Positions 2,658 through 54,944 of a DNA stretch of 64,000 bases are shown here, piece by piece. The stretch lies in NCBI GenBank assembly GCA_947475465.1, contig CANJLK010000004.1, positions 1-64,000 on the forward strand. The letters run 5' to 3'. Under the pieces are notes generated by a model. The model ran no database searches. It saw nothing but the letters and a program-made list of their open reading frames with translations, and was not told the origin of the DNA. Source of the DNA: Caulobacteraceae bacterium. GTDB taxonomy: Bacteria; Pseudomonadota; Alphaproteobacteria; Caulobacterales; Caulobacteraceae. The number at the start of each line of letters is the position of its first letter. Within the stretch, counting starts at the first letter, position 1. Both the position numbers and the translations under genes were made by a program.

Positions 2658-5471
2658 ATGAGTGACCACTTCGCTCTGCGCCGTCTTGCGCGGCCCACGA
2701 CAACCTTTGGCGCCAAGCGCGCTTGGCTTTGCAGCGCCGGCGTCTTCGCCGCGGTGGGCATGGCCGCGGCGCTTGGCTTCGCTGCGCCGGCCAGCGCCGC
2801 CGAGGCCGCCGCGCCTGCCAAGGCGCCTGTCACCGACCTGGGCGACGTGGTCGTCACCGCCCGCCGGGTGGAAGAACGCATTCAGGACGTGCCCGTCACG
2901 GTGACCGCCCTCAGTCAGGCCAAGCTCGACGCCCTGGTGGTCAACAACATCGGCGACCTCGCCAAGCTCTCCCCCGGCCTGCAGGTCACGAGCTGTGTTT
3001 CCGGATCGTCCACGGGCGGCGCCTCCTGCTCGGTGAACATCCGCGGCTTCACCTCGAACCGGGGCTCGGCCTTCGGCACTATCGCCTTCTACTTCGCCGA
3101 CGCCGCCGACATGTTCCAGTCGGACTACGACCTGCAGTCGATCCAGGTCCTGAAGGGCCCGCAAGGCACCCTGTTCGGCGACACGGTGACGGGGGGCGCG
3201 CTGCTCTTCACGCCGAAGAAGCCGAGCGGCCTGAAGAACTCCGGCTTCATCACCGCCGAGGGTGGCAACCTCAACTATCACCAGCTGACCGCCGCCTACG
3301 AAAACACCTTCCTGGACGGCAAGGTGAACTTCCGCCTGTCGGGCCAATACCGCCGCCGCGCGGGCTACGGCACGGTGCACTATTCCTTCGGCGGCAGCGG
3401 AGAGGTGGCTGACGTCAACCAGCTCTACCTGCGCGGCTCCCTGGTCCTGAAGCCCATCGACCAGCTCGAAAACTACACGGTAGCGCTGTGGCAGCGGGAC
3501 AAGACCAACGGCGGCCTGCAACCGATCGCCTACTATGACGCGCGGTTCTTCTCCGCCGCGACCCGCAATCTTGTGCCGAGCGCCACGCCGGCGTCGGCAG
3601 CGCTCTATGAATATTTCACCGGACAGACCCCCCCTCCCGGCCTGACCTTCCCGCAGATCGCCGCGTCGGATTTCGCACGTCAGACGGCGGCGGGCCCGGA
3701 TGAGGTCTGGTCGAACCTGGACGCCCACTACAAGCAGATTTCGGTCGGTGTCGTGAACCAGACCAAGTGGACGTTCAACGACCACTGGTACATCCGCAAC
3801 ATCTACCAGCTGCGCTGGATCCCCGAGGTCATCGGCGGCAACCAGAACTACGACGGCTCCATGGCCGCGTTCCTCCAGAAGGCCGCGCCGCAGGTTCCCA
3901 CCGCCGGGGCCGCCGCCTTCGCCACCAACTTCGCCAAGGTGGACAATGGCTGGAACAATCGGCAGTGGACGGACGAAGTCCAGGTGGTCGGCGACATGTT
4001 CGACAACCGGCTTAAGCTGCAAGGCGGGTACTACCATCGCGAGGACCGGCCGGGCGACTACTACGGCGCCTTCCCGTACCGCTATCCATCCCCGGCAGTG
4101 AACCAAAACCTGGCCTTCCAGGCTATCGCGGCCTACCAAACGGCTGCCCAGTGCAGCACGGCGACATTCACCTCACCGGTACCCTGCTACAAGATCACGA
4201 CCTTCGAGCGACACTCAGACGCGTTCTATGGTCAGGCGACCTGGGCGGTGACCGACAAGTTGAACCTGACCGCTGGCGGGCGGCAATCCAAGATCAGCCC
4301 CGGGATCACCAAGACCGCCGAACTGCCCACCTACTTCAGCAACTACACCGCCAGCAATGGCGTGGTCGTGGCTGTGCCAGTGCCGGTGCCCTACAACACG
4401 CCGATCCCCGGCTCGCCGGTCACCCAGACCCAGCAACCCGGCTACAACTCGTTCACCTACTCGCTGACAGCGGACTACAAGGTCGACGACGACACTCTGG
4501 TCTATATTGCCCACCGCAAGGGCTTCAAGCCAGGCGGCACCAATCCGACCCTGCCGACCACCGACCCGCTGTTCGCGTTCGGCCCCGAGACCATCAAGGA
4601 CGTGGAAATCGGGGTGAAGCGCGACTGGGCGGTCGGTGGCTGGGCCGCACGCACCAACGTCAGCATCTACAAGAACTGGTACGACAACATCCAGACCGGC
4701 ACCCGCCAGGGCGGTACGGTGCTGGTGACCATCAACGGCGGTACGGCTGACTACAAGGGTGCGGAATTCGAAGGCTTCATCACCGACCCGAGCCGTGTGT
4801 TCACCCTCAACATGGCTGTCGGCTACCAAAACGACAAATACGAGACCTTCATCGAGCAGACGTCCTGCTCAGTGCAGTTCTATCGTCAAACACCTGGCGG
4901 CTCCTGTGACTCGACGCTGGTCGGCGGGCAGCCCCTGGTTCCGACCTCCACCCTCATCACCATCGACCACGCCCACGGCACCCTGACCGTCGCAGCGGTC
5001 GCGCCGAGCGCGGCCAACCCCGCCGGTCGAGCGGCGCAGACCTATTCCTTCGAGCCGGACAAGATCACCCCTCAGCTGACCTGGTCGCTACGCCCCGAGA
5101 TCCATCTCGAGCCGTTGCTGGGCGAGAACATCGTCATGGGGCTGAACATCTACCACAATTCCGGTATCGCCGGCGGGCAGGGCAACGGCGCCTCCATCAA
5201 CGCCGGCCTCGCGCCCTACAGCGTCACCGGGGTCTACGGGAACGTCAGTGTACTGACGGCCTACAGCCTGACGAAGTACACTCAGTACGACTTCAGCGCC
5301 GACTGGCACAACATCCACGGCTCGCCCCTGAGCGCGTATCTGCGGGTCACCAACCTGGCCAACAAGCGCTTCCGCTACGGTGATTTCACCACCTTTGGCA
5401 GCGGCGGCACCGCGGCGCCCAGTCCGAACGAGCCCCGGATGGCTCTGGTCGGCGTCAAGTACGACTTCTAG
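2658..5471 (+). CDS. TonB-dependent outer-membrane receptor, six-cysteine type (TBDR1)
   Basis: Outer-membrane active-transport receptor of 937 residues. I chose the ATG at 2658 because GGGGAGGG precedes it; an in-frame ATG at 2613 lies inside the leader element. A signal peptide covers about residues 20-48, ending ASA-AEA. A TonB-box-like DVVVTARR follows at about 63, then the plug (IRGF, VLKGPQGTLFGDTVTGG) and a 22-strand barrel ending in the aromatic signature KYDF. The plug carries C113 and C124 just before IRGF, and two more Cys pairs lie in barrel loops. It is very similar to TBDR4. First gene of an apparent operon with the CMD-like and SDR genes. Substrate unknown. Confidence 0.95.
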   Translation: MSDHFALRRLARPTTTFGAKRAWLCSAGVFAAVGMAAALGFAAPASAAEAAAPAKAPVTDLGDVVVTARRVEERIQDVPVTVTALSQAKLDALVVNNIGDLAKLSPGLQVTSCVSGSSTGGASCSVNIRGFTSNRGSAFGTIAFYFADAADMFQSDYDLQSIQVLKGPQGTLFGDTVTGGALLFTPKKPSGLKNSGFITAEGGNLNYHQLTAAYENTFLDGKVNFRLSGQYRRRAGYGTVHYSFGGSGEVADVNQLYLRGSLVLKPIDQLENYTVALWQRDKTNGGLQPIAYYDARFFSAATRNLVPSATPASAALYEYFTGQTPPPGLTFPQIAASDFARQTAAGPDEVWSNLDAHYKQISVGVVNQTKWTFNDHWYIRNIYQLRWIPEVIGGNQNYDGSMAAFLQKAAPQVPTAGAAAFATNFAKVDNGWNNRQWTDEVQVVGDMFDNRLKLQGGYYHREDRPGDYYGAFPYRYPSPAVNQNLAFQAIAAYQTAAQCSTATFTSPVPCYKITTFERHSDAFYGQATWAVTDKLNLTAGGRQSKISPGITKTAELPTYFSNYTASNGVVVAVPVPVPYNTPIPGSPVTQTQQPGYNSFTYSLTADYKVDDDTLVYIAHRKGFKPGGTNPTLPTTDPLFAFGPETIKDVEIGVKRDWAVGGWAARTNVSIYKNWYDNIQTGTRQGGTVLVTINGGTADYKGAEFEGFITDPSRVFTLNMAVGYQNDKYETFIEQTSCSVQFYRQTPGGSCDSTLVGGQPLVPTSTLITIDHAHGTLTVAAVAPSAANPAGRAAQTYSFEPDKITPQLTWSLRPEIHLEPLLGENIVMGLNIYHNSGIAGGQGNGASINAGLAPYSVTGVYGNVSVLTAYSLTKYTQYDFSADWHNIHGSPLSAYLRVTNLANKRFRYGDFTTFGSGGTAAPSPNEPRMALVGVKYDF

Positions 5472-5483
5472 CTCAAGTGAAGG

Positions 5484-5509
5484 CGCGCCGGAGCCCAGGC
5501 TCCGGCGCG
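5484..5509 (+). terminator. Strong GC hairpin after TBDR1
   Basis: Perfect inverted repeat CGCGCCGGAGCC / GGCTCCGGCGCG with a two-base spacer, 12 bases after the TBDR1 stop. No T-run follows and the next gene starts 47 bases on, so it may be an mRNA-stabilising or partial-termination hairpin rather than a full terminator. A related hairpin follows TBDR4 (52144-52171). Confidence 0.55.
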
Positions 5510-5556
5510 GACTTCTCCGGCGCCGGCCCTGCGCGCGGTGGCCAGGGAGACCCGCC

Positions 5557-6201: not shown

Positions 6202-6248
6202 CGCGGGCCAGCGGCCCGCCCTACCCGCCCGCCAACGCAGGAGGAACC

Positions 6249-7040: not shown

Positions 7041-7063
7041 TCGAACGCGCGCCTAGGCACGCT

Positions 7064-7885: not shown

Positions 7886-7995
7886 GCCGCATCCCTCCCG
7901 CCGCCCTGCTCACCGAGGGCTCCGCCGGGATTAACTACCCTGGGGCCACGGCTGCAAGTCCCTGCGCGAACCCTTGAGTCCAGATGGAGAAGGCC

Positions 7996-9693
7996 ATGAT
8001 CGAGCGTACGAGCAATGTCCCGACCGGGTGGGACGAAGAAGCCGACGTGGTGGTCTGCGGTTCGGGTGGCGCGGCGCTTTCATGTGCAGTCGTCTCGGCC
8101 ATCGAGGGCTGCTCAGTGACGGTTCTGGAAAAGGCGGATCTAGTCGGCGGCACAACAGCGGTGTCTGGGGGCGGTGTGTGGATCCCCAACAATCACTGCA
8201 TGCCCGCGGTCGGAACCAGCGACAGCCGCGAGGAGTCCATGGCCTATCTCCAGGCCCTTGTGGGCGACACCGGCGAGCAGGCGATGCTGGACGCCCTGGT
8301 CGACGAGGGTCCCAAGGCCGTGCGCTATCTGGAGGACAAGGGCGGCTTCTTCTGGCGCGCCTATCCAGCTGTTGGCGGGACCAGCGACTATCGGCCCTGG
8401 CTGCCCGGCGAAAAGCCCGGCTCGCGCAGCATGGACTGCGGCTGGTTCGAGCTTGAGAGCCTCGGCGTCTCGGTCAAGCAGCTGCGCAAACGCGGGACCT
8501 CAACCGCCGACAAATTCGACATGTACACCCAGCGCCGGCATGCGGCGGCCCCGGACGGGACGCACGACACCCACCTAGCGCCGGGGCAGTCCGACGCGGT
8601 CACCGGGACGGTGATCGGCGGCGCGGCCTTCGCTGGTCGGCTCTTCAAGGCGGCGCTCGACAACGGCGCCAAGGTTCATGTCTCCACCCCGGCCAAGGCG
8701 CTTGTGGTCGACGGCGGCCGGGTCATCGGCGTCGAGGCCGAGAAGGACGGCAAGCCCTATTTCGTGCGTGCGCGGCACGGCGTGTTCATGGGCACGGGCG
8801 GCTATTCACACAATCCCGAACTGCTGAAGGCCTGGATGCAGCGGCCGATCGAGTACACCTGCGAGGTCGAAACCTCGACCGGCGACGGCCACCTCATGGG
8901 CCTGGCGATCGGCGCCCAGATGGCTCACCTGGGCGACGCCTGGTTCATGCCGGCGATCCCGCCTGAGGACTGGTCCGTGTTCGGCCATAGCCGGGGCGAG
9001 CGCGCCCTGCCTCACACCCTGATCATCAACAGACGCGGCAAGCGTTTCGTCAACGAGCCACTCAACTACTACGATTTCGGCGACGCCTGGGGAACCAAGC
9101 AGGACGGGCCGCGCAACCTGCCGGCCTGGCTGATCTTCGACAGCCAGGCAGTGGCGAAGTACAGGACCTTCGACGGCTTCGCCAAGACCCGGCCCGGGAC
9201 CCGCGGCTTCGCCATGGCCGATTCCCCCGACGAACTGGCCTCCAAGCTGGGCATCGAGCCCGCCAGCAACCTGCGCGAGACCCTTGAGCGTTTCAGCGCC
9301 TACGCGGCCAAGGGGGAAGATCCGGATTTCGGCCGCGGCCAGAACCCCTGGGACATCCGATGGGGCGACCCGAACAACCAGCCGAACGCCTCGCTGGGCA
9401 CGGTGGAAAAGGGCCCGTTTTACGCCGTGGAGATGCGCCCGGGCGCGCTTGGCACCAAGGGCGGGCTGAAGATCAACGCCAGGGCTGAAGTGATTTCCGC
9501 CTTGAACGGCAAACCGATCCCCGGCCTCTACGCCGGCGGCAACTGCGCCTCCAGCCCGACGCCCGGCGCCTACGGGGGGCCCGGCGGCACCCTCGGCGCC
9601 TGCCTCACCTTCGGATATCTGGCCGGCCTGGAATTGGGCGCGGCGGCCAGGGCGGCCAAGACTGGCGCGTCGGCCCTGGCGCGGGCCAAGTAG
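7996..9693 (+). CDS. FAD-dependent oxidoreductase, 3-ketosteroid Delta1-dehydrogenase/fumarate-reductase flavoprotein type
   Basis: 565-residue flavoprotein of the FAD_binding_2 superfamily. It has an N-terminal GSGGAA dinucleotide motif (22-27), the GGTTAVSGGGVW segment near 51-62 and a C-terminal FAD-clamping region GLYAGGNCASSPTPGAYGGPGGTLGAC. This arrangement is typical of 3-ketosteroid-Delta1-dehydrogenases and related ene-dehydrogenases, which desaturate next to a ketone. The ATG at 7996 is preferred because GGAG lies at good spacing; an ATG 12 bases earlier has none. No CoA-ligase or SDR gene is co-transcribed, but SDRs flank it on both sides. Steroid specificity is a hypothesis only. 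Confidence 0.85.
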   Translation: MIERTSNVPTGWDEEADVVVCGSGGAALSCAVVSAIEGCSVTVLEKADLVGGTTAVSGGGVWIPNNHCMPAVGTSDSREESMAYLQALVGDTGEQAMLDALVDEGPKAVRYLEDKGGFFWRAYPAVGGTSDYRPWLPGEKPGSRSMDCGWFELESLGVSVKQLRKRGTSTADKFDMYTQRRHAAAPDGTHDTHLAPGQSDAVTGTVIGGAAFAGRLFKAALDNGAKVHVSTPAKALVVDGGRVIGVEAEKDGKPYFVRARHGVFMGTGGYSHNPELLKAWMQRPIEYTCEVETSTGDGHLMGLAIGAQMAHLGDAWFMPAIPPEDWSVFGHSRGERALPHTLIINRRGKRFVNEPLNYYDFGDAWGTKQDGPRNLPAWLIFDSQAVAKYRTFDGFAKTRPGTRGFAMADSPDELASKLGIEPASNLRETLERFSAYAAKGEDPDFGRGQNPWDIRWGDPNNQPNASLGTVEKGPFYAVEMRPGALGTKGGLKINARAEVISALNGKPIPGLYAGGNCASSPTPGAYGGPGGTLGACLTFGYLAGLELGAAARAAKTGASALARAK

Positions 9694-9696
9694 CGC

Positions 9697-10515: not shown

Positions 10516-10556
10516 GGCGACCCCTCCCGCCGTTCCGCGTTCCGGACGCGACTGCG

Positions 10557-13449: not shown

Positions 13450-13476
13450 AATTTAAAAATCTGTACCGTTTAAAGG
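13450..13476 (-). promoter_or_regulatory. AT-rich GTACC element, candidate operator
   Basis: TTTAAAAATCTGTACC (13453-13468) followed by GTTTAAAGGCG resembles the first half of the duplicated elements at 1491 and 2560 (AAAA-y-CGTACC-...-TTAAGCGC). It overlaps the stop codon of the tandem TetR gene and lies about 120 bases before the enoyl-CoA hydratase operon. It could be an operator for that operon. Only the AT-rich and GTACC portions match, so the assignment is weak. Confidence 0.3.
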
Positions 13477-14729
13477 CGACTGGCGTCGCCTGCGAAACCC
13501 TGCCGGAAAGCGCTGCGGGCGGCCCCGATATCCGGCGGCGAGCCCGTGGAGATGGTCCGCACCATCATGCCGACGTAGAGCGCCTGGACCCACATCGCGT
13601 CGCGACTCTGGGTCGCCGGATTGATGGCGCGCATCTGTCGGGTCCAGGCCGCCGAGCGCTCGAAGATAGCCTCGGAAACCTCCGATCGCAGGTCAGGCCG
13701 CCGCGCCGCCTCCAGCCAGATGGAGTAGATCGCCACGGGCGACAGGCTGAGGTCGGTGGCCTCGCGAACGAACAGGGCGGCGGTGCTGTCGGCCAGTTCG
13801 TCGATCGCGGACCGGGAGGCTGCGATCGCCGTGCGGATCTCCCGGTATTGTTCCTTTGAGCGCTGGAAAAGCTCGGCTTCGGCGGCGTTGAGAAGTTGGG
13901 TGATGGACCCGAAATGGTAGGCCGGCGCGGCGGTGGTCAGGCCGCTGGCCTCGGCGACCGCCTTGTAGGTGATGGCGCCGACGCCGCGGGCGATCAGCAG
14001 GCCGATGGCGGCGTCCAGAATCCGCTGGCGGGTGTCCTGGGCTTTGCGCCCCGGCCGGCTCGCCACCGCCGGCTTGGCCGGAAGGGCCGCGCGGGGGGCG
14101 GCCCAGGCTTCGGCTGGATTTCGCCCGTCCACAAAGACCGCCGCGACCTGTTCTGGCGTGAGCGCCAGGGGCCGGGTTATGAACAGCAGGCCGATCACCG
14201 TGTCGATGTAGACGGTGGCGAACCTTCGGCTGTCTTCGATCCCCATCGCGTCGGCCAGATCGCACCAGACCTGCGCCATGTCGTCGAACCATTCGCGCGC
14301 AAAGGCATGGCCCTCCGAACTGCGCGCGGCATCCAGGATTATCTCGGCCCAGGCAAGGCTCGTACGCTTGTGGCGGCCGGCGGCGTTGGTCACCTGCTTC
14401 GTGGCGAGCGCGGCCATGTCCGGCGCAACCTTGTCGCCAGCCCGGTGACGGGCGGCCGCGACGCGGAACGAGGTAACATAGCTGTCGAGCAGTTGGCTCG
14501 AGGCGTCGGCGACCATGTCGGCCTTGGTGGCGTAGTGATAGGTGGTCGCCGCCAGCGAGACCCCAGCGGCGGCGGCCACCAGCCGGTGCGTCAAACGGCC
14601 AAGTCCATGCTCGGCCACCACCGTGATGACGGCGTCCGCGATCCGCGCCTTCGTCCTCGCCGTACGCGCTGAAGATGCGCCGTCGATTTCGCGCAGCTGC
14701 GGAATGCCCGCCAATTGCATGTATTTCAC
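13470..14729 (-). CDS. Regulator with two fused TetR domains
   Basis: 419-residue protein with two complete TetR-type units in one chain. The first HTH is at about 27-73 (TKARIADAVITVVAEHGL ... GVSLAATTYHYATKADMV) and the second at about 233-281 (TRQRILDAAIGLLIARGV ... GLTTAAPAYHFGSITQLL). Each is followed by a helical ligand/dimer region, and an Ala/Pro-rich linker near 205-230 joins them. Normal TetR repressors are about 200 residues and act as homodimers, so this could be a single-chain pseudo-dimer. The start may be the GTG at 14729 or the ATG at 14720. It lies just upstream of the hydratase operon and divergent from an SDR operon, both likely targets. Confidence 0.9.
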   Translation of the reverse strand: MKYMQLAGIPQLREIDGASSARTARTKARIADAVITVVAEHGLGRLTHRLVAAAAGVSLAATTYHYATKADMVADASSQLLDSYVTSFRVAAARHRAGDKVAPDMAALATKQVTNAAGRHKRTSLAWAEIILDAARSSEGHAFAREWFDDMAQVWCDLADAMGIEDSRRFATVYIDTVIGLLFITRPLALTPEQVAAVFVDGRNPAEAWAAPRAALPAKPAVASRPGRKAQDTRQRILDAAIGLLIARGVGAITYKAVAEASGLTTAAPAYHFGSITQLLNAAEAELFQRSKEQYREIRTAIAASRSAIDELADSTAALFVREATDLSLSPVAIYSIWLEAARRPDLRSEVSEAIFERSAAWTRQMRAINPATQSRDAMWVQALYVGMMVRTISTGSPPDIGAARSAFRQGFAGDASRL

Positions 14730-43283: not shown

Positions 43284-46061
43284 ATGACCAATCGCACGCC
43301 TTTGCAGACCCGTGTCGCGCGCGTCAGCAAATCGGCCTGGCTCTGTGGCGTTTCGTTTGTGGCGGCCACGGGCATGAGCGCCATGAGCGCCGGACCGGCC
43401 TTCGCGGCCGACGCCGCCCCCGCGCCCAAGGCTGCGGAGTCCACCACGCTTGGCGACGTCATCGTCACCGCCCGCCGCATCGAAGAACGCCTGCAGGATG
43501 TTCCGATCGCGGTCTCCGCCGTGGGTCAGCAGAAGATCGACGACCTGGTGATCAAGACCCAGGCCGACCTGGTCAAGCTCGCCCCCGGCGTGCAGCTCGG
43601 GTCCTGCAACAGCGGCGGCCCCCCCGGCGCGGCCTATTGCCCGCTCAGCATCCGCGGCTTCTCGGCCCAGCTCGGCGCCGGCGGCGGCGCGGTCGTCACC
43701 TATTTCGCCGACGCGGCCAACTTCCCCTCCAGCACCTATGACCTGCAAAACATCCAGGTCCTGAAGGGCCCGCAAGGCACCCTGTTCGGCGACACGACCA
43801 CCGGCGGCGCGGTCCTCTACGTGCCGAAGAAGCCCAACGGTTCGAAGGGCGGCTTCATCGAGGCGGAGATCGGCAACTACAACGAACGCCGCATCACCGC
43901 GGCCTACGAAAACAGCTTCGCCGACGACCGGGTCATGTTCCGCCTTGCCGGCGAGTACCGGGTGCGCCAGGGCGTGACCACCGGCCACTTCACCTGGAAG
44001 GCAGGCACGGAAAAGCTCGACGACGTCAACTCGCTGCAGCTGCGCGCGTCCCTGGTCCTGAAGCCCTTTGAAAATCTCGAGAACTACACGGTCGCGGCCT
44101 TCCAACGGTCCGAGACACATGGCGGCGGACTTTTCACCTGGTACACCGATCCCCGGTTCGTGCCGGCGGCCCGCGTCAACCAGGTCCCCAGCGCCGATCC
44201 GATCCTCGCGGCGCAATATGAGTTCTACAGCGGCAGCGCCCCGCCGGCCGGCCTGAGCTGGTCGCAGATCATGCTGTCGGAAATCGCCCGCCAGGCGGCC
44301 GCCGGCAATCGCGACGCCTATGTCGGCCTCTACACGGCGAACACCACCCAGACCCACGGGATCGTCAACCAGACGAAGTGGACGATCAGTCCGCACCTCT
44401 TCGTGCGCAACATCATCGCCGTGCAGTGGCCGCTGGAGAACGACCTCAACTATCCGCAGGAATACAAGGGCACCGGCAACAATTTCGATGGCAGCGACGC
44501 GCCGATCCTGGACCGCAGCGGCCAGCGCACGGCCGCGGCCCGTAACGCCTATGACGGCAACTACTACACACTGCACAATCCGTGGCGGTACCGTCAGTAC
44601 ACCGAAGAACTTCAGGCCGTCGGCGACCTGTTTGACAATCGCCTGAAGTGGCAGGCGGGCTTCTTCTACAAGCCCCAACTGCACGGCCCCTTCCTAAATC
44701 CGCAGTCGACCGAACTGATCAGCTACGCGAACCCCTCGGCGGCCCTGTCGCTGCCGGCGGCCACCTGCGTCAGCCTGGGCGGTCCAAACCAACCTTGCTA
44801 CCGCCAGACCCGTCAGTCGAACAAGACGACCGCCGAATACGCCCAGGGCACCTTCGCGATCACCGACCGGCTGAACTTCACGGCTGGCGTGCGGCGCACC
44901 AAGGTCACCGACCTGCGGACCGAGTCGGCGATCGCGCCCACCCAGTTCGTCGACTTCACCGCAAGCAACGGCGTGACCATCCACATGCCGCTGATGGTTG
45001 GCGGGATCGCGCCTTATCCGAACGCGCCGGTGGTCAGCAGCTATACGCCCGGCTCGAAGTCGACGACCTATTCGCTCACGGCGGACTGGAAGCCGACCGA
45101 CGACATCATGCTCTACATCGCCCATCGCAAGGGGTTCAAACCGGGCGGCCTGAACAACTCCGCCCCGGCCGACAGCCCGTTCCGGGTCTTCGGGCCTGAG
45201 TCTCTCAAGGACGTCGAACTCGGGGCGAAGGCCAGCTGGAGCCTTGGCGGCATCCAGGGCCGGTCGAGCTTCGCAGCCTATCGCGACTGGTACACCGGCA
45301 TCCAGATCAACCTGCTGGCGCCGGGCCTGCCCTCGCTCGTCACCGTCAACGGCGGCCAGGCCAACTTCCACGGCGCCGAATTCGACACCACCATCCAGCC
45401 CGCACCCTGGTTCGAGATCACCGCCCAGGCCAGTTGGACCTCGGCGCGCTACACCGAGTACAAGGAGACCAGCGCCTGCACCAACCAGAGCTGGCGTCTT
45501 GGCATTGTCGGCCAGTGCGCCGACCTCGATCCGGTGACCGGCAAGATCGTGGCCCTCCCGGGCAACACGCCGATCCTGATCGACCACGCCAAGGGCCTTG
45601 TGGAAATCCAGCCCGTGGGCAAGCCGGTGCGGGACTTCTCCTATCGCCCCGACCGCTTCCCGCTGTCGCCCTACACCTGGTCGCTACAGCCGACGATCCT
45701 GCTCAACCCCGTCATCGGGCATGACATCCGGATCTCGGCCAATATCTACCACCGCAGCGGTGAGACGGGCATCGGGGCCGTCGCGCCCAACCTGGCCGGC
45801 GTGCCGACCTTTACGGTTCAGACCTTCCTGGGTCCGACGAGCGGGATCGATACGTCAAGCATCCCGAAATACACCCTCGTGGATCTGAGCGCGGATTGGC
45901 GGGCGGTTATGGGCTCGCGGGTCAACCTCTGGGCCCGGATCACCAACCTTACCGACAAGCGCTACCGCTACAGCGCCGCCAACTTCACGGCGACCAACGT
46001 CAACGGCGTGACGCTCAGCGAACCGCGGATCTACACGGTCGGCCTGCGTTACAACTTCTAG
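43284..46061 (+). CDS. TonB-dependent outer-membrane receptor, six-cysteine type (TBDR2)
   Basis: 925-residue outer-membrane receptor. ATG 43284 is chosen because of the conserved GGGGGAAACATCGA leader and because a signal peptide (WLCGVSFVAATGMSAMSAGPAFA) then falls at about 19-41. The upstream in-frame start at 43158 lies in the G-rich hairpin region. A TonB-box-like DVIVTARR is at about 58-65, then the plug with C108/C119 before IRGF, VLKGPQGTLFGDTTTGGAVLY and a barrel ending GLRYNF. Two further Cys pairs occur in the barrel. It is a close paralogue of TBDR3 directly downstream. Divergent from the Mo-hydroxylase operon, whose substrate it may import. Confidence 0.95.
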   Translation: MTNRTPLQTRVARVSKSAWLCGVSFVAATGMSAMSAGPAFAADAAPAPKAAESTTLGDVIVTARRIEERLQDVPIAVSAVGQQKIDDLVIKTQADLVKLAPGVQLGSCNSGGPPGAAYCPLSIRGFSAQLGAGGGAVVTYFADAANFPSSTYDLQNIQVLKGPQGTLFGDTTTGGAVLYVPKKPNGSKGGFIEAEIGNYNERRITAAYENSFADDRVMFRLAGEYRVRQGVTTGHFTWKAGTEKLDDVNSLQLRASLVLKPFENLENYTVAAFQRSETHGGGLFTWYTDPRFVPAARVNQVPSADPILAAQYEFYSGSAPPAGLSWSQIMLSEIARQAAAGNRDAYVGLYTANTTQTHGIVNQTKWTISPHLFVRNIIAVQWPLENDLNYPQEYKGTGNNFDGSDAPILDRSGQRTAAARNAYDGNYYTLHNPWRYRQYTEELQAVGDLFDNRLKWQAGFFYKPQLHGPFLNPQSTELISYANPSAALSLPAATCVSLGGPNQPCYRQTRQSNKTTAEYAQGTFAITDRLNFTAGVRRTKVTDLRTESAIAPTQFVDFTASNGVTIHMPLMVGGIAPYPNAPVVSSYTPGSKSTTYSLTADWKPTDDIMLYIAHRKGFKPGGLNNSAPADSPFRVFGPESLKDVELGAKASWSLGGIQGRSSFAAYRDWYTGIQINLLAPGLPSLVTVNGGQANFHGAEFDTTIQPAPWFEITAQASWTSARYTEYKETSACTNQSWRLGIVGQCADLDPVTGKIVALPGNTPILIDHAKGLVEIQPVGKPVRDFSYRPDRFPLSPYTWSLQPTILLNPVIGHDIRISANIYHRSGETGIGAVAPNLAGVPTFTVQTFLGPTSGIDTSSIPKYTLVDLSADWRAVMGSRVNLWARITNLTDKRYRYSAANFTATNVNGVTLSEPRIYTVGLRYNF

Positions 46062-46194: not shown

Positions 46195-46234
46195 CCCGCC
46201 GCCAGAGCGGGATGATCTCAGGGGGAAACATCGA
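46195..46234 (+). promoter_or_regulatory. Conserved 5' leader of TBDR3
   Basis: Second copy of the leader at 43244: hairpin CCCGC / GCGGG (46195-46211), then CAGGGGGAAACATCGA and ATG at 46235. Conservation over about 40 bases upstream of both receptor starts suggests duplication together with the gene and possibly shared regulation. Confidence 0.55.
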
Positions 46235-48982
46235 ATGACAGTCTACATGTCTTCGCAGGCTCATGCCGCCGGGGCCCAGCGCATGGGCAAGGCGACCTGG
46301 CTCTGCGGCGTTTCGGTCCTCGCCGCCGCCGGCTTAATCGCCCTGAGCGCGACCCCAGCCGCGGCCGCCGACGCAGCACCCGCCAAGGCCAACGACGCCA
46401 CCACGGTCGGCGACGTCATTGTCACAGCGCGGCGGGTCGAGGAGCGGCTGCAGGACGTGCCTGTGGCCGTCACGGCGCTCGGACAGTCCAAGATCGACGA
46501 TCTGGTCGTCCATACCCAGGCCGACCTTGTGAAGATGGCGCCGGGCCTGCAGATCACCGGCTGTAACAGCGGCGCGCCTCCGGGCGCTTCTTCCTGCCCG
46601 CTGACGATCCGCGGCTTCTCGCAGATCCTCGGAGCCAGCTCCTCGGCGGTCATCACCTATTTCGACGACGCGCCGAACTTTCCTGCCGCGACCTTCGACC
46701 TGCAGAACATCCAGGTCCTCAAGGGCCCCCAAGGCACGCTGTTCGGCGACACCACCACGGGCGGCGCGGTGCTCTATGTGCCCAAGAAGCCGAACGGTTC
46801 GACGGGCGGCTTCATCGAGGCCGAATATGGCAACTACAACGACCAGCGCCTGACCGGCGCCTACGAGAATTCCCTAGCCGACGACCGGATCATGTTCCGT
46901 TTCGCCGGCGAATTCCGCCACCGCGACGGCCTGACGACCGCTAAGTTCACCTGGCGGGGGGACAAGAAGGTCGACGACGTCAACAATCTGCAACTCCGCG
47001 CTTCGCTGGTGCTCAAGCCGATCGAAAGCGTTGAGAACTACAGTGTTTTCGTCTTCAATCAGTCGCGGCAGACAGGATCTGCGCAGTATCCCTGGTTCAC
47101 GGATCCAAGATATTTCAGCGTCGCGCGGGTGAACGAAGTTCCCAGCGCCAACCCGACCCTGGCCGCGCAATACGAATTCTACACCGGCGCGCCACCGCCC
47201 GCCGGCCTGACCTGGTCGCAGATCGCGCTGGCCGCCGTGGCCCGCCAGGCGGCCGCCGGTTTCGGGACGGTCTACCAGAGCCTGGACCAGGGCTTGAAGT
47301 CGCGGAACTGGGGGCTCGTCAACCAGACCAAGTGGGAGATCACCCCCCACGTCCAGATCCGCAACATCTTCGCCATGCAGTGGCCAGTCCTCAACGATAT
47401 CAACTATCCCAATGCTGCACGGGGATCGGGCGCCAATTTCGACGGCACGGACGCGCCGTTGCTCGATCGGATCGGCGAGCGCAACGCGAGTGCGCGCAAC
47501 GCCTACGACGATAACTACTACTCGCCGCGTGATCCCTGGCGCTTCAGGCAATACACTGACGAGGTCCAGGCGGTCGGCGACCTGTTCGACAATCGCATCA
47601 AGTGGCAGGCCGGCTTCTACTACCGGCGTCAGCGTCCGACCGAGTTCGTCAACCAGCAGCAAACGCAGCTGATCAGCTTTGCGGGGCCGTCTGTCGCCCC
47701 GACAACCGCCGCGGCCTGCGCGGCCCTCGGCGCGCCGGCCCAGCCCTGCTACCGGATGATCCGCCAGTCGTCACAGACCCACGCCTTCTATACCCAGGAA
47801 GTTTTCAAGCTCACCGACACGATCAACTTCACGGCCGGCGTGCGGCGCACCTACCTCAGCCAGCTGAAGACTGAGAACGCGCTGGCGCCCTACCAATTCG
47901 TGGACTTCACGGCCAGCAACGGCGTGACCATCCACCAGCCGATCGTCATCGGCGGAATCAAGCCCTACGCCGGCGTGCCGATCATCACCAGCTACTCCCC
48001 CGGCGCCAAGTCGACGACCTATTCGCTGACCCTGGACTGGAAGCCCTGGGACAACACCCTGCTCTACATCGCCCACCGCAAGGGCTTCAAGGCCGGCGGC
48101 CTCAACAGCACCGCCCCGGTGGGAAGTCCCTTCGCGCTCTACAGCCCTGAAACCGTCAAGGACGTGGAAATCGGCGTGAAGGGCAACTGGAACGTGGGCG
48201 GCATGGGCGTCGCCACCAGCGTCTCGATCTATCGCGATTGGTATTCCGACATTCAGACCCAGTCCGCGGTGCCGGGCGTCGCGGTACTCCTGACGGTCAA
48301 CGGCGGTCAGGCGGACTTCCACGGCGTCGAATTCGACACCACCTTCAAGCCGGCCTCATGGTTCGAACTGACGGTCCAAGGCGCATATGCCTATGCCCGC
48401 TTCACGCAGAACATCGAGAACACGACCTGTGCGACGCAGTTCTATCGCCAAAGCGTCCCCGGGCAGTGTCAAGGCATCCCGACCAGCACCCCGATCGTGA
48501 TCGATCACGCCGCGGGCACCGTCTCGATCCAGCCCGTGGGCCTCCCAGCCCGCAACTTCAACTACCGGCCCGACCGCTTCGGCATCTCGCCGATCACCTG
48601 GGCGATCCAGCCGAAATTCCTGCTGGAGCCGCTCACCGGCAAGAACATCACGCTGGGCGCAAACATCTATCACCGCGATCCTGAGAGCGGCATCGGCAAC
48701 ATCGCCTCTCAGACGGCCGGCATCCCGGGCCTCCTGCTCAACACCGTCTATGGGCCGACGGACGACCTCGGCACCGCCAGCATCGCGCGGTACACCCTGG
48801 TCGACCTGAGCGCGGACTGGCGCCACGTCAACGACATGCCGATCAGCCTGTGGGCCCGGGTCACCAATCTGACGGACAAGCGCTACCGCTACAGCGCCCA
48901 GAACTTCCAGTCCACGGGGCTCGCCGGACCGACCGTCTCTGAGCCGCGAATGATCACCGTCGGCGTACGATACGACTTCTAG
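46235..48982 (+). CDS. TonB-dependent outer-membrane receptor, six-cysteine type (TBDR3)
   Basis: 915-residue receptor, close paralogue of TBDR2. The ATG at 46235 follows GGGGGAAACATCGA; the much longer open frame back to 45896 overlaps TBDR2 and is not coding. A signal peptide spans about 22-45 (WLCGVSVLAAAGLIALSATPAAA), then DVIVTARR, a plug with C110/C121 before IRGF, VLKGPQGTLFGDTTTGG and a barrel ending VRYDF. Extra Cys pairs lie in AACAALGAPAQPCYR and in CATQFYRQSVPGQC. The tandem arrangement and shared leader indicate recent duplication and divergence toward different ligands. Confidence 0.95.
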   Translation: MTVYMSSQAHAAGAQRMGKATWLCGVSVLAAAGLIALSATPAAAADAAPAKANDATTVGDVIVTARRVEERLQDVPVAVTALGQSKIDDLVVHTQADLVKMAPGLQITGCNSGAPPGASSCPLTIRGFSQILGASSSAVITYFDDAPNFPAATFDLQNIQVLKGPQGTLFGDTTTGGAVLYVPKKPNGSTGGFIEAEYGNYNDQRLTGAYENSLADDRIMFRFAGEFRHRDGLTTAKFTWRGDKKVDDVNNLQLRASLVLKPIESVENYSVFVFNQSRQTGSAQYPWFTDPRYFSVARVNEVPSANPTLAAQYEFYTGAPPPAGLTWSQIALAAVARQAAAGFGTVYQSLDQGLKSRNWGLVNQTKWEITPHVQIRNIFAMQWPVLNDINYPNAARGSGANFDGTDAPLLDRIGERNASARNAYDDNYYSPRDPWRFRQYTDEVQAVGDLFDNRIKWQAGFYYRRQRPTEFVNQQQTQLISFAGPSVAPTTAAACAALGAPAQPCYRMIRQSSQTHAFYTQEVFKLTDTINFTAGVRRTYLSQLKTENALAPYQFVDFTASNGVTIHQPIVIGGIKPYAGVPIITSYSPGAKSTTYSLTLDWKPWDNTLLYIAHRKGFKAGGLNSTAPVGSPFALYSPETVKDVEIGVKGNWNVGGMGVATSVSIYRDWYSDIQTQSAVPGVAVLLTVNGGQADFHGVEFDTTFKPASWFELTVQGAYAYARFTQNIENTTCATQFYRQSVPGQCQGIPTSTPIVIDHAAGTVSIQPVGLPARNFNYRPDRFGISPITWAIQPKFLLEPLTGKNITLGANIYHRDPESGIGNIASQTAGIPGLLLNTVYGPTDDLGTASIARYTLVDLSADWRHVNDMPISLWARVTNLTDKRYRYSAQNFQSTGLAGPTVSEPRMITVGVRYDF

Positions 48983-49010
48983 CGGTCCGATCGAGGATCG
49001 CGCCGGACCG
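48983..49010 (+). terminator. Hairpin after TBDR3
   Basis: CGGTCCG (48983-48989) / CGGACCG (49004-49010), a perfect 7-base stem with 14-base loop directly at the TBDR3 stop. No T-run follows. A possible terminator; a second short perfect hairpin GGGTCGG/CCGACCC follows at 49078-49094. Confidence 0.4.
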
Positions 49011-49145
49011 ATCGCCGGCGTGCGAAAGCGCGTCCGCCGACATGGTCCGGCCCGATCTCCCTTGATGCCCGGATTTTGGGTCGGTTCCCGACCCGGATTG
49101 GAGTCGACCCTAAGACACGACCGGACCTAAGCGGTGGCCTGCTGT

Positions 49146-49209
49146 CCTGGTCGCCCTGCGCACCCTGGCGCGGGATTTCAGCGCGGTCTGAACCGACAGG
49201 GCGACCGGG
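49146..49209. terminator. Long inverted repeat between TBDR3 and the LuxR gene
   Basis: GGTCGCCCTG (49149-49158) and CAGGGCGACC (49197-49206) match perfectly and extend by three pairs including one G-T, around a 38-base loop. It lies 9 bases past the LuxR stop between convergent genes, so it may act as a bidirectional transcription stop. Confidence 0.45.
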
Positions 49210-49217
49210 GGCGCACC

Positions 49218-52004
49218 TTATGAGGCCAGGCTCAGGCCCATGGCCAGGGCCTTGCGGACCGCATGGCGCCGCGTCTCGGTGTCCAGCTTGCGAAGCACGT
49301 TTCGGACATGCCACTTCACCGTACCGGGCATCATGTTCACGCGCCTGGCGATCTCCTTGTTGGACAGGCCAGCCGCCAGTTGCCTGAGCACATCGATTTC
49401 GCGTTGGGTCATCAGATCGGTCAGTTGCGTGCGATTGGAATTGGCGGGCATTGCGCCGCCGGCGTCCTGCGCCCGAGCCGCCGCCACGGCTCGGAAATGG
49501 GCACGCTCCGTGTCTGACAGGGCGGCGTAACTGGCGGTGTGCTCAAAGCCGTCCAGAACGCCGATCGAGGTCGAATCCAGGATGCAGCGCAGGGCTTGGC
49601 GCGGCGCGGAACTCCAGATCAGGTCGGCGATGACCGCCTCCGCCGCCTGCGGCCTTTCCATCCTCTGCAGGAGATCGGCCTTCAGCATCTTGATCTTCAC
49701 CCCCTCAAGGATCGAGCGACGGGTGAGCACCAGGCTTCGCTCCACGACCTTGCCGGCGCCCCCCAGATCGCCCTGCCGGAGCTTTTCGATGATCAGGGCT
49801 TCGGCCACCGTCTGGGCCATGCGCGCCGGGCGCGACAGCGGATGGGCGTCCAGCGCCGCTGACCAGTCGATATCCCGCTCCAGGGCGTCGAGATCCACCA
49901 TCTGGGGAAGGCGCAGGCGGGCCCTCAGCGCCGCGCACGCCGCGCCCAGTCGGGCCCAGTGGCGGGCTTCGGCGACCCCTTCGGCGCGCTCGACCAGCCT
50001 GGCCGCGGCGCCATGGTCTCGCCGGGCCAGGCGCACGCCAACCAAGGTGCGGTAAGCGGAGATCATCGCGTCGGGGAAGCAGACCTCATCTATCGCTGAA
50101 AGCCGCTCGTGAAGAACCTCGTCCGCCTGGTCCAGTTCGTTGCGTTCATAGAGATATCGCGCCGCCAGCACGCTGGCCACGGCGGCGGAGCCCGAATTGG
50201 CGCCGCCCGCGGCCTCGAGGCGCGCCAGACTCTCGCGCGCGATGCGTTCGCCCTCCGCGTGGCGGCCCTGCTGAGAGGAGCCCATGGAAAGCACATATTG
50301 CGCGTAGGCCATGGTCAGCGGCTGTTCGGGCTCGTCGCTCACCAGATGTGCGGGCGCCATCAGTTCCCGGGCGCGTGCGAAATCGCCGGACAGGGTGCAA
50401 CAGAGGGCGGCGGTGTTGCGCACGGCGCGGGCGGCGAAGCTGCTCTGTTCGTTCCGGCGCCGCAGGAAGGTCATGGCCAGGTCGCGCGCCGCCTCGGAGT
50501 CGTCCTCGACGATGACCGCCGCCAGCGACCGGATACCCGCAAGATCGGCCCGCAGGGCCTCGGTGTCGGCGTCGGGATGACGGGCGACAAACCGTTCGAC
50601 GTCGGCGATGACCTCCACCACGTCGCGGCGGCCCGTCAGGGCCAGCGCCCAGGCCCGGGCCACGCTCAGGGGCAGTCGCCGGGCCACCGATGCGGGCGGA
50701 AGCCGTGCGATCCAATCCAGCAGAGTGGACAGGTTGGCCCGTTCGACCATGCCCATGGCGGCCCGCTCGACGCCCTCCAGCGCCAGGCCGGCGTTACCGG
50801 ATTCGATCGCATGGCGGGCCGCGTCCAGCGGTTGCTCCGCCGCCAAGAAGAAGCGCGCCGCAGCCTCATGCGCCTCGGGAACCCCGCCCCTGGCCCTCAG
50901 GCGAAGCAGCAGGAATTCCCGGAATACCGGATGCAGCCGATACCAGCCATCCTGGCCCTCCTCGCGCTGGAGGAAGGTATTCTGCTCCCACAGCCAGGCG
51001 AGCATGTCGGCGGCCCGTGGGAGCCCGCTCAGCGCTGCGGCCAGGGCGCCGTTCACCCGGTCAGGGACCGCGCAACTGGCCAGCAGGGCGCACATTTCGG
51101 GAGGCAGGCGGCTGAAGACACTTTCCGTGAGGTAGGCGTCCAGCCACTGGGCCTCATGGATCGCCGCGCCCACGTCGTCTGTGGCCGACCCAGACTTGAG
51201 AAGAGCGATCGCCCCGAGCTTGATCCCCGTCACCCAGCCTTGCGTCGCCTGATGCAGGCCCGCGATCTGGTCCCTGCTCAGAGCGCCCCTCGCCGACACC
51301 AGCTTTCGCGCCTCGCTCAGGTCCAGGCTCAGGGCGTCGACCGACTTCACCAGCAAAGCGCGCCGGCGGCGCAGATCGTCGAGCGGCAGGCGAGGCCATC
51401 CACGGCAAGTCACGACAAGGTGGAAATTGGCCGGCGCGTTGGCCAGGAGCACCGCCATGAACCGGGCGCTGGCGTCCCCGCCTAGGTGATCGAAATCGTC
51501 GAGGAAGAGGAAGTAGTGACCGGCCTGACCCTGGAGCGCCGATATCGCGGCTTGCGCCGTTGATACCGCGTCTTCCGCCCGGGCCCGGTCGCTCGCCGGC
51601 TCAAGGACGCGGCTAGGCAGGTCGAGGCCCATCTTCCTCAGCGCGTCGGCCACGTAGATGGGTCCGAGGTCGGGATCGCGATCGCCGGGATCGAAGCTGA
51701 CCCACGCGGTCGGGTTGGAAAGAGACAGCTGCTCGGCCAGCATCGCGGCCGCTGTGGTCTTGCCATACCCAGCGGGGGCCCTGATGACGGTCAGCAGGTG
51801 CTGTGCCATCTCGTCGGCCCAACCCAGGATACGGCCGGCGCCGACCCTGCCGTGCGGCGCGGGCGGCGGGCTGAGCTTGGTGGTGACCAGTGCTGGCGCG
51901 GCAGGCTCCGCGGCAGGGCCTCGGTCTGGCGCTCGCGGAGAAGCCCAGCGCGTGAATCCGGTCGATTGGGCCTCGGGCTTGGGCGCCGATGCCGGATCGT
52001 CCAT
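49218..52004 (-). CDS. MalT/LAL-type LuxR transcriptional regulator (first copy)
   Basis: 928-residue ATP-dependent regulator. The N-terminal STAND-type NTPase has Walker A APAGYGKTT (76-84) and Walker B FLFLDDFDHLGG. A long helical-repeat sensor region follows, then a C-terminal LuxR HTH (LTDLMTQREIDVLRQLAAGLSNKEIARRVNMMPGTVKWHVRNVLRKL). The ATG at 52004 has GGGGAGG six bases upstream; the GTG at 52019 is part of that site. It lies downstream of TBDR4 on the same strand and convergent with TBDR3. MalT-like proteins bind an inducer and ATP, then oligomerise to activate transcription. The nearby receptor genes are likely targets. Confidence 0.93.
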   Translation of the reverse strand: MDDPASAPKPEAQSTGFTRWASPRAPDRGPAAEPAAPALVTTKLSPPPAPHGRVGAGRILGWADEMAQHLLTVIRAPAGYGKTTAAAMLAEQLSLSNPTAWVSFDPGDRDPDLGPIYVADALRKMGLDLPSRVLEPASDRARAEDAVSTAQAAISALQGQAGHYFLFLDDFDHLGGDASARFMAVLLANAPANFHLVVTCRGWPRLPLDDLRRRRALLVKSVDALSLDLSEARKLVSARGALSRDQIAGLHQATQGWVTGIKLGAIALLKSGSATDDVGAAIHEAQWLDAYLTESVFSRLPPEMCALLASCAVPDRVNGALAAALSGLPRAADMLAWLWEQNTFLQREEGQDGWYRLHPVFREFLLLRLRARGGVPEAHEAAARFFLAAEQPLDAARHAIESGNAGLALEGVERAAMGMVERANLSTLLDWIARLPPASVARRLPLSVARAWALALTGRRDVVEVIADVERFVARHPDADTEALRADLAGIRSLAAVIVEDDSEAARDLAMTFLRRRNEQSSFAARAVRNTAALCCTLSGDFARARELMAPAHLVSDEPEQPLTMAYAQYVLSMGSSQQGRHAEGERIARESLARLEAAGGANSGSAAVASVLAARYLYERNELDQADEVLHERLSAIDEVCFPDAMISAYRTLVGVRLARRDHGAAARLVERAEGVAEARHWARLGAACAALRARLRLPQMVDLDALERDIDWSAALDAHPLSRPARMAQTVAEALIIEKLRQGDLGGAGKVVERSLVLTRRSILEGVKIKMLKADLLQRMERPQAAEAVIADLIWSSAPRQALRCILDSTSIGVLDGFEHTASYAALSDTERAHFRAVAAARAQDAGGAMPANSNRTQLTDLMTQREIDVLRQLAAGLSNKEIARRVNMMPGTVKWHVRNVLRKLDTETRRHAVRKALAMGLSLAS

Positions 52005-52143
52005 CTGAACCCTCCCCACCCGTGCATCGTCCGGCGCGCCAGGGGGCGGCCGGCCTCCCGATCACGTCCGGCGCCAGAACCGGAGCGACGGCATTCTTCT
52101 TGCCGCAAGCTTGCCGAGGCCGAGGCTTGCACGTCAAGAGCGA

Positions 52144-52171
52144 CGCGCCGGAGGGGGGAGCCTCCGGCGCG
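52144..52171 (-). terminator. Strong GC hairpin after TBDR4
   Basis: CGCGCCGGAGG (52144-52154) / CCTCCGGCGCG (52161-52171), a perfect 11-base stem with a six-base loop 13 bases past the TBDR4 stop. The stem matches the hairpin after TBDR1 (5484-5509), showing that the 3' flank was duplicated with the gene or is under constraint. Confidence 0.6.
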
Positions 52172-52184
52172 CGCATCTCAAGAC

Positions 52185-54944
52185 CTAGAAGTCGTACTTC
52201 ACCCCGACCAGCGCCATGCGCGGCTCGTTCGGGCTAGGGGCCGCCGTGCCACCGCTGACGTAGGTCGCGAAGTCACCCAGGCGGAAGCGCTTGTTTGCCA
52301 GGTTGGTCACCCGGACGTACGCGCTCAACGAAGAGCCGTGGATGCTGTGCCAGTCGGCGCTGAAGTCATAGAGCGTGTACTTGGGGAAGCTGTAGGCGGT
52401 GAGGTTGCTCACCGGCCCGAACACGCTGTTGACCGTGATCAGCGGCACGCCTGCAAGGTTCGACGCGCCCTGGCCGGTGCCGCCGCCCGTGCCCGAGCTG
52501 TGGTAAATGTTCATCCCCAGAACAACGTTCTCGCCCAGCACTTGGTCGAGGTGGACTTCCGGCCGCAGGGACCAGGTGATCGACGGGTTAAACTTGTCGG
52601 GCTTGAAGGTGTAGCTCTTCGCCGGGCCGACCGCGGGCGCGATCGTCAAGGTGCCCGCCGCGTGATCGATCAGGATCGGCGTGGTCGCGGGCAGGCCGTC
52701 GCAAGAACCGCCCGGAACCTGACGCCAGAACTGCACGCTGCAGAAGGTCTGTTCCTGGAACTGGGTGTACTTGTTGCTCTGCCAGTCGAACTGGGCGTTG
52801 AGGGTGAACCAGCTGTTGGGGCTGATGAACCCTTCGAATTCGGCGCCGTGGAAATCCGCGGTGCCGGCGTTGGCGATGACCGTGATCGACGGCGGCTGAC
52901 GGGTCGTCAGCTGGATGTTGTCGTACCAGTCGCGATAGACCGAGACGTTCGTCCGCGCGCGCCACCCCCCGAAGGTCCAGTCGCGCTTCAGGCCGACTTC
53001 CACATCCTTCAGGCTTTCCGGACCGAAGGCGAACTTGGGATCGGTGGTCGGCACGTTGAAGTTCGAGCCGCCCGGCTTGAAGCCCTTGCGGGTGGTGACA
53101 TAGACCAGCGTGTCTTCATCGAACTTGTAGTCGGCGGTCGCCGAATAGGTGAACGAGTGATAGCCCGGCTGGGCGCTGTCCGGCGTGCCGATCGTGGTGG
53201 CGAGCTGGGTCGGATTGAAAACCGGAACCGTCTCCACAACCGTCGTGCCGTTGCTGGCCGTATAGTTGACGATGGGCTGCGCGAAGTAGCCGCTCTTGGT
53301 GACCGCCGGGCCGATGATCGATTCACGGCCGCCCAGGGTGACGTTGAGCTTGTCGGTCACCTTGAAGGTGCCCTGGATGTAGAAGGCGTCTGCCTTGCGC
53401 TGGTAGGTGGTCAGCTTGAAGCAGGGGGTGCCGGCCGGCTGGACGCCAACGGCGGCGCAGGCGGCGGCCGAAAGCTGGCCTTGCGGCAGGCCTTCCGTTG
53501 CGACCTGCTGGTTCACCAGCGGGCTGGGGTAGCGGTAGGGGAACAGGCCGCCGAAGTCGCCCGGACGGTCGGTGCGGTGGTAGTAGCCGCCCTGCAGCTG
53601 GAGCCGGCCGTCGAACAGGTCGCCGACCGCCTGGATCTCATCCGTCCACTGGCGGTTGTTCCAGCCGTTGTCGATGTTGGCCCAGTTGTTCCGCCAGATC
53701 GGCGTGTTCTGGACCACGGTCTTGAAGCCCTGGTTCTCGAGGAAGGGGCCCACAGAGCCGTCATAGTTCTGGCTGCCGCCGACGCCCTTCGGGATCCAGC
53801 GCAGCTGGTAGATGTTGCGGATGTAGAAGTGCTCGTTGAACGTCCACTTCGTCTGGTTGACGATGCCGGCGTACACACGCAGCGAGTGGGCGTCGATGTT
53901 CGAATAGACGTCGTCGGGGCCGGCCGCCGTCTGGCGCGCCAGGTCGGCCTGGGCGATCTGCGAATAGCTGAGTCCGGCGGGCGGCAGCGAGCCCGTGAAG
54001 TATTCGTAGTTGGCCGTGGCCGACGGGCTGGCGCTCGGGATCACGTTGCGGGTGGCCGCCGAGAAGAACCGCGGATCGGTGAACGAGATCGGCTGCAGGC
54101 CGCCGTTGGTCTTGTCCTTCTGCCAGATCACGACCGTGTAGTTTTCCAGCTTGTCGATCGGCTTAACCACGAGGGACCCGCGCAGATAGAGCTGGTTGAC
54201 GTCGCCGACCTTGTCGGTGCCGCCGAAGGAATAGTGGACGGTGCCGTAGCCGGCGCGGCGCCGGTACTGGCCCGAAAGCCGGAAATTGATCTTGCCGTCG
54301 GCCAGTGTGTTTTCGTAGGCGGCAGTGATCTGGTGATAGTTGAAGTTGCCGCCTTCAACGCTGACGAAGCCAGCGTTCTGCAGCCCGCTCGGCTTCTTGG
54401 GCGTCGACAACACGGCGCCGCCCGTCGTGGTGTCGCCGAACAGGGTGCCCTGTGGGCCCTTCAGGACCTGGATGCTCTGCAGGTCGTAGTCCGAGGTCCA
54501 CATGTCCGCCGCGTCGGCGAAATAGATGGCGATCGATCCGGACTGGTTGCCGCGGTTGGCGGTGAAGCCGCGAATGTTCACCTGGCAGGCCGCCCCGCCG
54601 GTGGCCGAGCCGCTGGTGCAGCTGGTGATCTGCAGGCCGGGCGCCAGCTTGGCGAGGTCTGCCTGGTTGTTGACGACGAGGGTGTCGAGCTTGGCCTGGC
54701 TGAGCGCGGTCACTGCGACCGGCACGTCCTGAATGCGCTCTTCGACGCGCCGGGCAGTGACGACAACGTCGCCAAGATCGGTAACCGATCCGGCCTTTGC
54801 AGGCGCCTCGGCGGCCGAGGCCGGCGCAGAGACGACGATGGCGGCCAGGCCGCTGGCGACCACCAGGGCGACGCTGTTCATCCAGCGGCGGCGACCCGCG
54901 ACGGAGACGATATCAAGCGCCGCGGCGCGGTGAAGATGATGCAT
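52185..54944 (-). CDS. TonB-dependent outer-membrane receptor, six-cysteine type (TBDR4)
   Basis: 919-residue receptor and close paralogue of TBDR1 (shared long segments such as SDYDLQSIQVLKGPQGTLFGD and RLSGQYRRRAGYGTVHYSF). The ATG at 54944 follows GGGGAGCAAGCCT. A signal peptide covers about 21-45 (WMNSVALVVASGLAAIVVSAPASA), then DVVVTARR at about 59, a plug with C109/C120, and a barrel ending GVKYDF. Upstream is a perfect 18-base palindrome overlapping the likely promoter, so it is probably repressed by a TetR-type protein. Downstream is a MalT-type regulator. Ligand unknown. Confidence 0.95.
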   Translation of the reverse strand: MHHLHRAAALDIVSVAGRRRWMNSVALVVASGLAAIVVSAPASAAEAPAKAGSVTDLGDVVVTARRVEERIQDVPVAVTALSQAKLDTLVVNNQADLAKLAPGLQITSCTSGSATGGAACQVNIRGFTANRGNQSGSIAIYFADAADMWTSDYDLQSIQVLKGPQGTLFGDTTTGGAVLSTPKKPSGLQNAGFVSVEGGNFNYHQITAAYENTLADGKINFRLSGQYRRRAGYGTVHYSFGGTDKVGDVNQLYLRGSLVVKPIDKLENYTVVIWQKDKTNGGLQPISFTDPRFFSAATRNVIPSASPSATANYEYFTGSLPPAGLSYSQIAQADLARQTAAGPDDVYSNIDAHSLRVYAGIVNQTKWTFNEHFYIRNIYQLRWIPKGVGGSQNYDGSVGPFLENQGFKTVVQNTPIWRNNWANIDNGWNNRQWTDEIQAVGDLFDGRLQLQGGYYHRTDRPGDFGGLFPYRYPSPLVNQQVATEGLPQGQLSAAACAAVGVQPAGTPCFKLTTYQRKADAFYIQGTFKVTDKLNVTLGGRESIIGPAVTKSGYFAQPIVNYTASNGTTVVETVPVFNPTQLATTIGTPDSAQPGYHSFTYSATADYKFDEDTLVYVTTRKGFKPGGSNFNVPTTDPKFAFGPESLKDVEVGLKRDWTFGGWRARTNVSVYRDWYDNIQLTTRQPPSITVIANAGTADFHGAEFEGFISPNSWFTLNAQFDWQSNKYTQFQEQTFCSVQFWRQVPGGSCDGLPATTPILIDHAAGTLTIAPAVGPAKSYTFKPDKFNPSITWSLRPEVHLDQVLGENVVLGMNIYHSSGTGGGTGQGASNLAGVPLITVNSVFGPVSNLTAYSFPKYTLYDFSADWHSIHGSSLSAYVRVTNLANKRFRLGDFATYVSGGTAAPSPNEPRMALVGVKYDF

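Follow-up and report, generated by a model that had tools for sequence, protein, structure and literature searches.

The extent of plug unfolding during import by a TonB-dependent receptor is a question still under study, for which engineered disulfides have served as probes. In BtuB, residues 23-73 are described as the mechanically weak half of the plug, and TonB pulls this weak part out of the receptor; for FhuA, the same report gives 20-83 as the part pulled out (PMC5413942). A BtuB variant with an engineered closed loop of 15 residues in the weak half showed an extension 6 nm shorter and gave full growth on vitamin B12, and a plug-barrel cross-link in BtuB lowered growth on this vitamin (PMC5413942). 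In FepA, engineered intraplug disulfides are reported to have blocked transport (PMC11658791, citing Majumdar 2020), so that a native bond within the plug needs a reason. Searching the open-access literature, including passages of PMC6694100, PMC6699858, PMC11658791 and PMC10994204, we found no natural plug disulfide, which does not prove that there is none. Among receptors linked to catabolism, EdcT takes up estrogens in Novosphingobium tardaugens, where its deletion slowed growth on estradiol according to PMC7793797.

Here we describe four receptors (TBDR1-4) encoded in a stretch of 64,000 nucleotides from a Caulobacteraceae genome (hereafter, the window). Their mature parts carry three pairs of cysteines, one of them in the plug. 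The two barrel pairs are of an ordinary kind. What is unusual is the plug pair, which makes these receptors a natural test of plug mechanics.

Four receptor genes and their neighbours

TBDR1 (937 aa) is encoded at 2658..5471, TBDR2 (925 aa) at 43284..46061 and TBDR3 (915 aa), a tandem copy of TBDR2, at 46235..48982, all on the forward strand; TBDR4 (919 aa) is encoded on the reverse strand at 52185..54944. All four match the Pfam Plug domain (PF07715) followed by the barrel domain (PF00593), both above cut-off (43.3 and 81.1 bits in TBDR1), and their fold is that of the solved receptors of the TonB-dependent receptor superfamily. A putative TonB box, DVVVTA or DVIVTA at residues 63 or 58, aligns with the box region of the E. 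coli receptors. The NCBIfam families for named receptor types (siderophore, haem, B12 and others) all scored below cut-off, both in TBDR1 (7 families) and in TBDR2 (17 families). Pairwise identity is 66% for TBDR1/4, 62% for TBDR2/3 and 44-46% across the two pairs. Judged by sequence, the four are paralogues of moderate divergence, and to say that TBDR1/4 and TBDR2/3 differ widely outside the cysteines, as a preliminary description of the window did, is too strong for identities of 44-66%. The sequence immediately 5' of the start codons is also alike in TBDR2 and TBDR3.

We scanned 40 of the 46 ORFs called in the window with Pfam. The matches include a PhyH dioxygenase, many short-chain dehydrogenases (SDRs), acyl-CoA dehydrogenases, an enoyl-CoA hydratase, a CoA transferase, AtuA, a P450, a thiolase (above cut-off) and a molybdenum enzyme of the CO-dehydrogenase type. 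The ORF at 7984-9693 encodes an FAD-dependent dehydrogenase (FAD_binding_2) that is nearest to the 3-ketosteroid-1-dehydrogenase models, at 400 bits and below their cut-off of 789. Around the other members of the subfamily described below, 30 ORFs yielded S15-type hydrolases, MFS carriers, an FAA hydrolase, tannase, amidase and cupins. The cargo of these receptors is probably organic nutrients processed by the surrounding catabolic genes, as their neighbours indicate, and since the catabolic neighbours differ between members, nutrients of differing kinds are suggested.

The ORF directly behind TBDR1 (5380-6201) had no Pfam or NCBIfam match. We considered a small cupin gene shared behind each receptor and rejected it, as the window sequence at 5470-6201 is unlike the cupin found behind the receptor of locus L118. 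MalT-type LuxR regulators of 933 aa (49218-52019) and 911 aa (59508-62243) adjoin TBDR4 and a fifth receptor, TBDR5. A 419-aa ORF at 13470-14729, in which TetR N-terminal and TetR_C_31 stretches each occur twice, is apparently a fused double repressor. KdpA, also encoded in the window, shares 83% identity with a plasmid protein from Phenylobacterium, with the next match at about 63-66%, which suggests a host within the Caulobacteraceae.

A small receptor subfamily

A profile built from TBDR1-4 identified nine strong members in the genome that contains the window (E <= 3.3e-191), namely TBDR1-4 and L005-L009, with the next match at 4.8e-60; a PF00593 search of this genome gave 34 receptor matches. 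The gap in E-value bears out the earlier proposal of a distinct receptor subfamily. Elsewhere in the family, we found members in four of 389 genomes (G011, G401, G402 with two members, and G248), and in the samples of the order (249 genomes), class (385) and phylum (398) only in the genome of the window; as two to three candidates were scored per genome in these searches, some members may have been missed. A further search of 60 genomes gave two with members, the genome of the window included, and plasmid records returned 13 weak matches, none covering 80% of the query. In a homologue scan, none of the best 80 of 467 relatives belonged to the subfamily; with identities of about 25-30%, they were used as outgroup only. 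Within the genomes searched, the plug pair is lineage-restricted.

For the comparison of cysteines we assembled 14 full-length members, nine of them from one genome, so that the rows are related. Duplicate or partial frames were left out (the second frames of L001 and L002, the frames of L109 and three fragments of L108). At L123 (G011:C1:2917000-2936500) at least two subfamily receptors follow each other with interrupted reading frames: one match has an internal TGA, and one frame of 1191 aa runs into the next receptor. A further receptor piece in the L107 frame of G011, outside the set of 14, has a plug with Cys-x10-Cys.

Three pairs of cysteines

Mature TBDR1-4 have no cysteine outside three pairs, all of which are present in all four receptors; TBDR1-3 only have an extra one in the signal peptide (C25, C21 and C24, respectively). 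The plug pair keeps 10 residues between its cysteines throughout: C113-x10-C124 in TBDR1 (2994..3029, forward strand, as for all pairs of TBDR1-3), C108-x10-C119 in TBDR2 (43605..43640), C110-x10-C121 in TBDR3 (46562..46597) and C109-x10-C120 in TBDR4 (54585..54620, reverse strand, as for its other pairs). The motif IRGF begins four residues past the second cysteine. Barrel pair 1 varies in spacing and ends in PCYK, PCYR, PCYR and PCFK in TBDR1 to TBDR4: C499-x10-C510 in TBDR1 (4152..4187), C495-x9-C505 in both TBDR2 (44766..44798) and TBDR3 (47717..47749), and C496-x11-C508 in TBDR4 (53421..53459). Barrel pair 2 again has a constant spacing, with C737-x12-C750 in TBDR1 (4866..4907), C732-x12-C745 in TBDR2 (45477..45518) and TBDR3 (48428..48469), and C735-x12-C748 in TBDR4 (52701..52742). 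The six positions and their spacings had been given correctly to the residue in the preliminary description, as had the lack of cysteine in the visible part of TBDR5, which extends over 473 residues. The plug of TBDR5 (L025), which lies beyond the window, has no cysteine in the hairpin loop, and its whole stop-to-stop frame has four.

The outgroup comprised 112 frames, from the best 80 of 467 relatives, mostly sphingomonads, and the other receptors of the same genome; some genes are held twice, where two loci cover one gene (e.g., L011/L021 and L013/L017). The two plug columns were filled in 106 and 100 of these frames, none with a cysteine within four columns of either, and by a second criterion cysteine was found in 0 of 108 outgroup plug loops. 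Plug cysteines were likewise absent from the four E. coli receptors BtuB, FhuA, FepA and CirA, and hairpin-loop cysteines from the five PDB sequences compared, of 27 matched. On these counts the plug pair is as unusual as had been supposed. The barrel tells a different story. At barrel pair 1, a cysteine occupies the first column in 41 of the 92 filled outgroup rows, and each of the 15 rows listed of those 41 has a second one 7-14 residues downstream; the loop of barrel pair 2 is mostly unaligned in the outgroup, with 19 and 15 rows filled. By alignment, FhuA has two loop pairs (C318/C329 and C692/C698) and FepA and CirA one each. As far as these alignments indicate, a cysteine pair like barrel pair 1 is widespread in receptor loops, and the putative bonds of the two barrel pairs are probably ordinary loop disulfides of the FhuA, FepA and CirA kind. 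We accordingly no longer regard the three pairs as novel throughout: three extracytoplasmic disulfides are not unusual as such, two of them being of the common extracellular-loop kind.

Across the 14 members each barrel pair was always present (14/14), with spacings of 8-11 for pair 1 and of 12 or 8 for pair 2. The plug pair was found with both cysteines in 11 members and with neither in three (L008, L009 and L112), never with a single one. Its spacing is 10 residues in eight of the 11 rows and 6 in the other three (L110, L111 and L113). The expectation that all six cysteines are conserved across homologues holds fully for the barrel pairs and in part for the plug pair, whose absence from 3 of 14 could not have been foreseen from the window alone. 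Since the plug pair is missing from these members, it is not required for the fold or for general transport. L008, L009 and L112 each carry exactly two further cysteines, closely spaced elsewhere in the barrel (CxC, Cx3C and Cx12C). Were the rows independent, a both-or-neither pattern would arise by coincidence in 1 of 364 cases, a figure that is not a real probability for related rows. When presence or absence of the plug pair is mapped onto a tree that includes six outgroup receptors, three changes of state are required, and well-supported branches force two or more of these. Because partners are kept and lost together, and because indels alter the spacing while both cysteines stay, the pattern looks like that of bonded pairs, as first proposed. 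With 14/14 for each barrel pair, 11 both and 3 neither for the plug pair and 0/108 in the outgroup, the six-cysteine pattern appears, at the level of sequence, to be more than chance.

Placement in structural models

The model of TBDR1 (pLDDT 84.8, pTM 0.87) puts the plug pair at the exact base of the first apical plug hairpin: in model numbering the cysteines are residue 66, the last of strand 61-66, and residue 77, the first of strand 77-81. In the model of TBDR2 the pair flanks the same hairpin (loop 69-77), with the cysteines 2-3 residues outside the strands. Confidence in the plug loop is pLDDT ~70 for TBDR1 and below 50 for TBDR2. The barrel pairs lie in long loops in both models, in TBDR1 before strand 463-483 (pair 1) and after strand 685-689 (pair 2). 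The corresponding plug loop touches or faces the ligand in BtuB and FhuA. C113 of TBDR1 aligns with N57 of BtuB, whereas C124 is opposite a gap that immediately precedes I66; the BtuB counterpart of the hairpin is thus 57-65, within the weak part of the BtuB plug, and the loop also contains residue 83 of FhuA, the last of its pulled-out part.

Discussion

We read TBDR1-4, with a probability of roughly 0.6, as organic-nutrient receptors of a small, lineage-restricted subfamily with three disulfides, two in barrel loops and one that staples the plug. That the three pairs are disulfide bridges is probable. The six mature cysteines would form three short-range bonds in the periplasm, made by the Dsb system before the barrel assembles; DsbB was found in the genome. 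Two of the bonds would stiffen extracellular loops of the barrel, an ordinary device of the superfamily, and the third would close the plug's first apical hairpin at its base, between the strand that follows the PG motif and the strand that starts the IRG motif. Such a bond would be a local staple holding the hairpin in shape for contact with the ligand, and our data suggest, as the preferred reading, that the plug pair shapes this ligand-facing hairpin. The staple may also shorten the unravelling of the plug: since it would lie in the plug part that TonB pulls out of BtuB, it would limit how far the hairpin can unravel. It could not tie the plug to the barrel, because both of its cysteines, with 10 (or 6) residues between them, belong to a single hairpin. 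That the bond is an outright mechanical stop, at which TonB-driven unravelling ends so that the channel has a fixed width tuned to the cargo, we regard as unlikely; were it so, members with 10 residues, with 6 residues and with no bond would be three natural gate settings, some of them in one cell.

Other explanations can be weighed against this one. The disulfides could be purely structural, an aid to folding or to resistance against proteolysis that influences neither the choice of ligand nor the motion of the plug. Such loop disulfides are common, as FhuA, FepA, CirA and the 15 listed outgroup receptors illustrate, and three of the 14 members manage without the plug pair; a purely structural role would leave unexplained why outgroup plug loops have no cysteine at all while the subfamily has undergone several gains and losses, and we hold it as a possible but less than probable account. 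The plug cysteines might instead form no bond and provide a site for a metal or a haem-type ligand, in the manner of Cys143 and Met147 of the copper importer OprC, in which a cargo-binding plug cysteine is known as part of a CxxxM-HxM site (PMC8610252). OprC chains (6fom and 6z8s) were indeed among the structural matches. Against this, none of the 11 members with the pair has a Met or His between the two cysteines, and TBDR1-4 have no Met between or three past them; judged on this plug CxxxM, they lack the plug CxxxM and barrel HxM combination of OprC-type importers. The Pfam matches of the 40 scanned window ORFs include no copper-handling genes, and the modelled placement at the hairpin base would fit a disulfide, all of which makes a metal site highly improbable.

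Least credible to us is a redox-gated receptor, whose plug would stay locked in the barrel as long as the plug disulfide is not reduced. The preliminary description had raised a locked plug, and two observations speak for a redox gate: the bond would lie within the plug part that TonB unfolds in BtuB (PMC5413942), and FepA was blocked by engineered intraplug bonds (PMC11658791). The bond would join residues of one hairpin, however, and not plug and barrel, BtuB still gave full growth on B12 when a 15-residue loop within its plug was closed, as reported in PMC5413942, and no reductase gene is prominent among the 40 scanned window ORFs. The idea of a locked plug is thus not supported.

Evolution has seemingly placed, kept, resized and removed a plug bond in these receptors, and a single genome contains paralogues with and without it. 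This provides a ready comparison between TBDR1-4 and L005-L007, which have the pair, and L008 and L009, which do not. Even if the pair does nothing beyond shaping the hairpin, a catabolic receptor subfamily can be recognised by it.

Among known systems, EdcT resembles these receptors in gene context, its gene being placed within a steroid-type catabolic cluster in PMC7793797. ZnuD has a Cys pair in loop L3, whose disulfide was proposed to shape the ligand site (PMC2895646); unlike the plug pair described here, that bond belongs to a loop of the barrel, and His and Asp residues make up the zinc site described there. OprC shares with TBDR1-4 a plug cysteine facing outside, and differs in that a single Cys with Met partners binds copper (PMC8610252), a motif that TBDR1-4 lack. 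FhuA, FepA and CirA, at about 16-18% identity over the structural alignment, have no plug cysteine and carry siderophores, whereas TBDR1-4 have a plug pair and catabolic genes as neighbours. BtuB shares the plug topology, and its weak plug part covers the position of the hairpin; its disulfides, however, were engineered into a receptor whose wild type has no cysteine in the mature protein, while TBDR1-4 have a putative native bond at the hairpin base.
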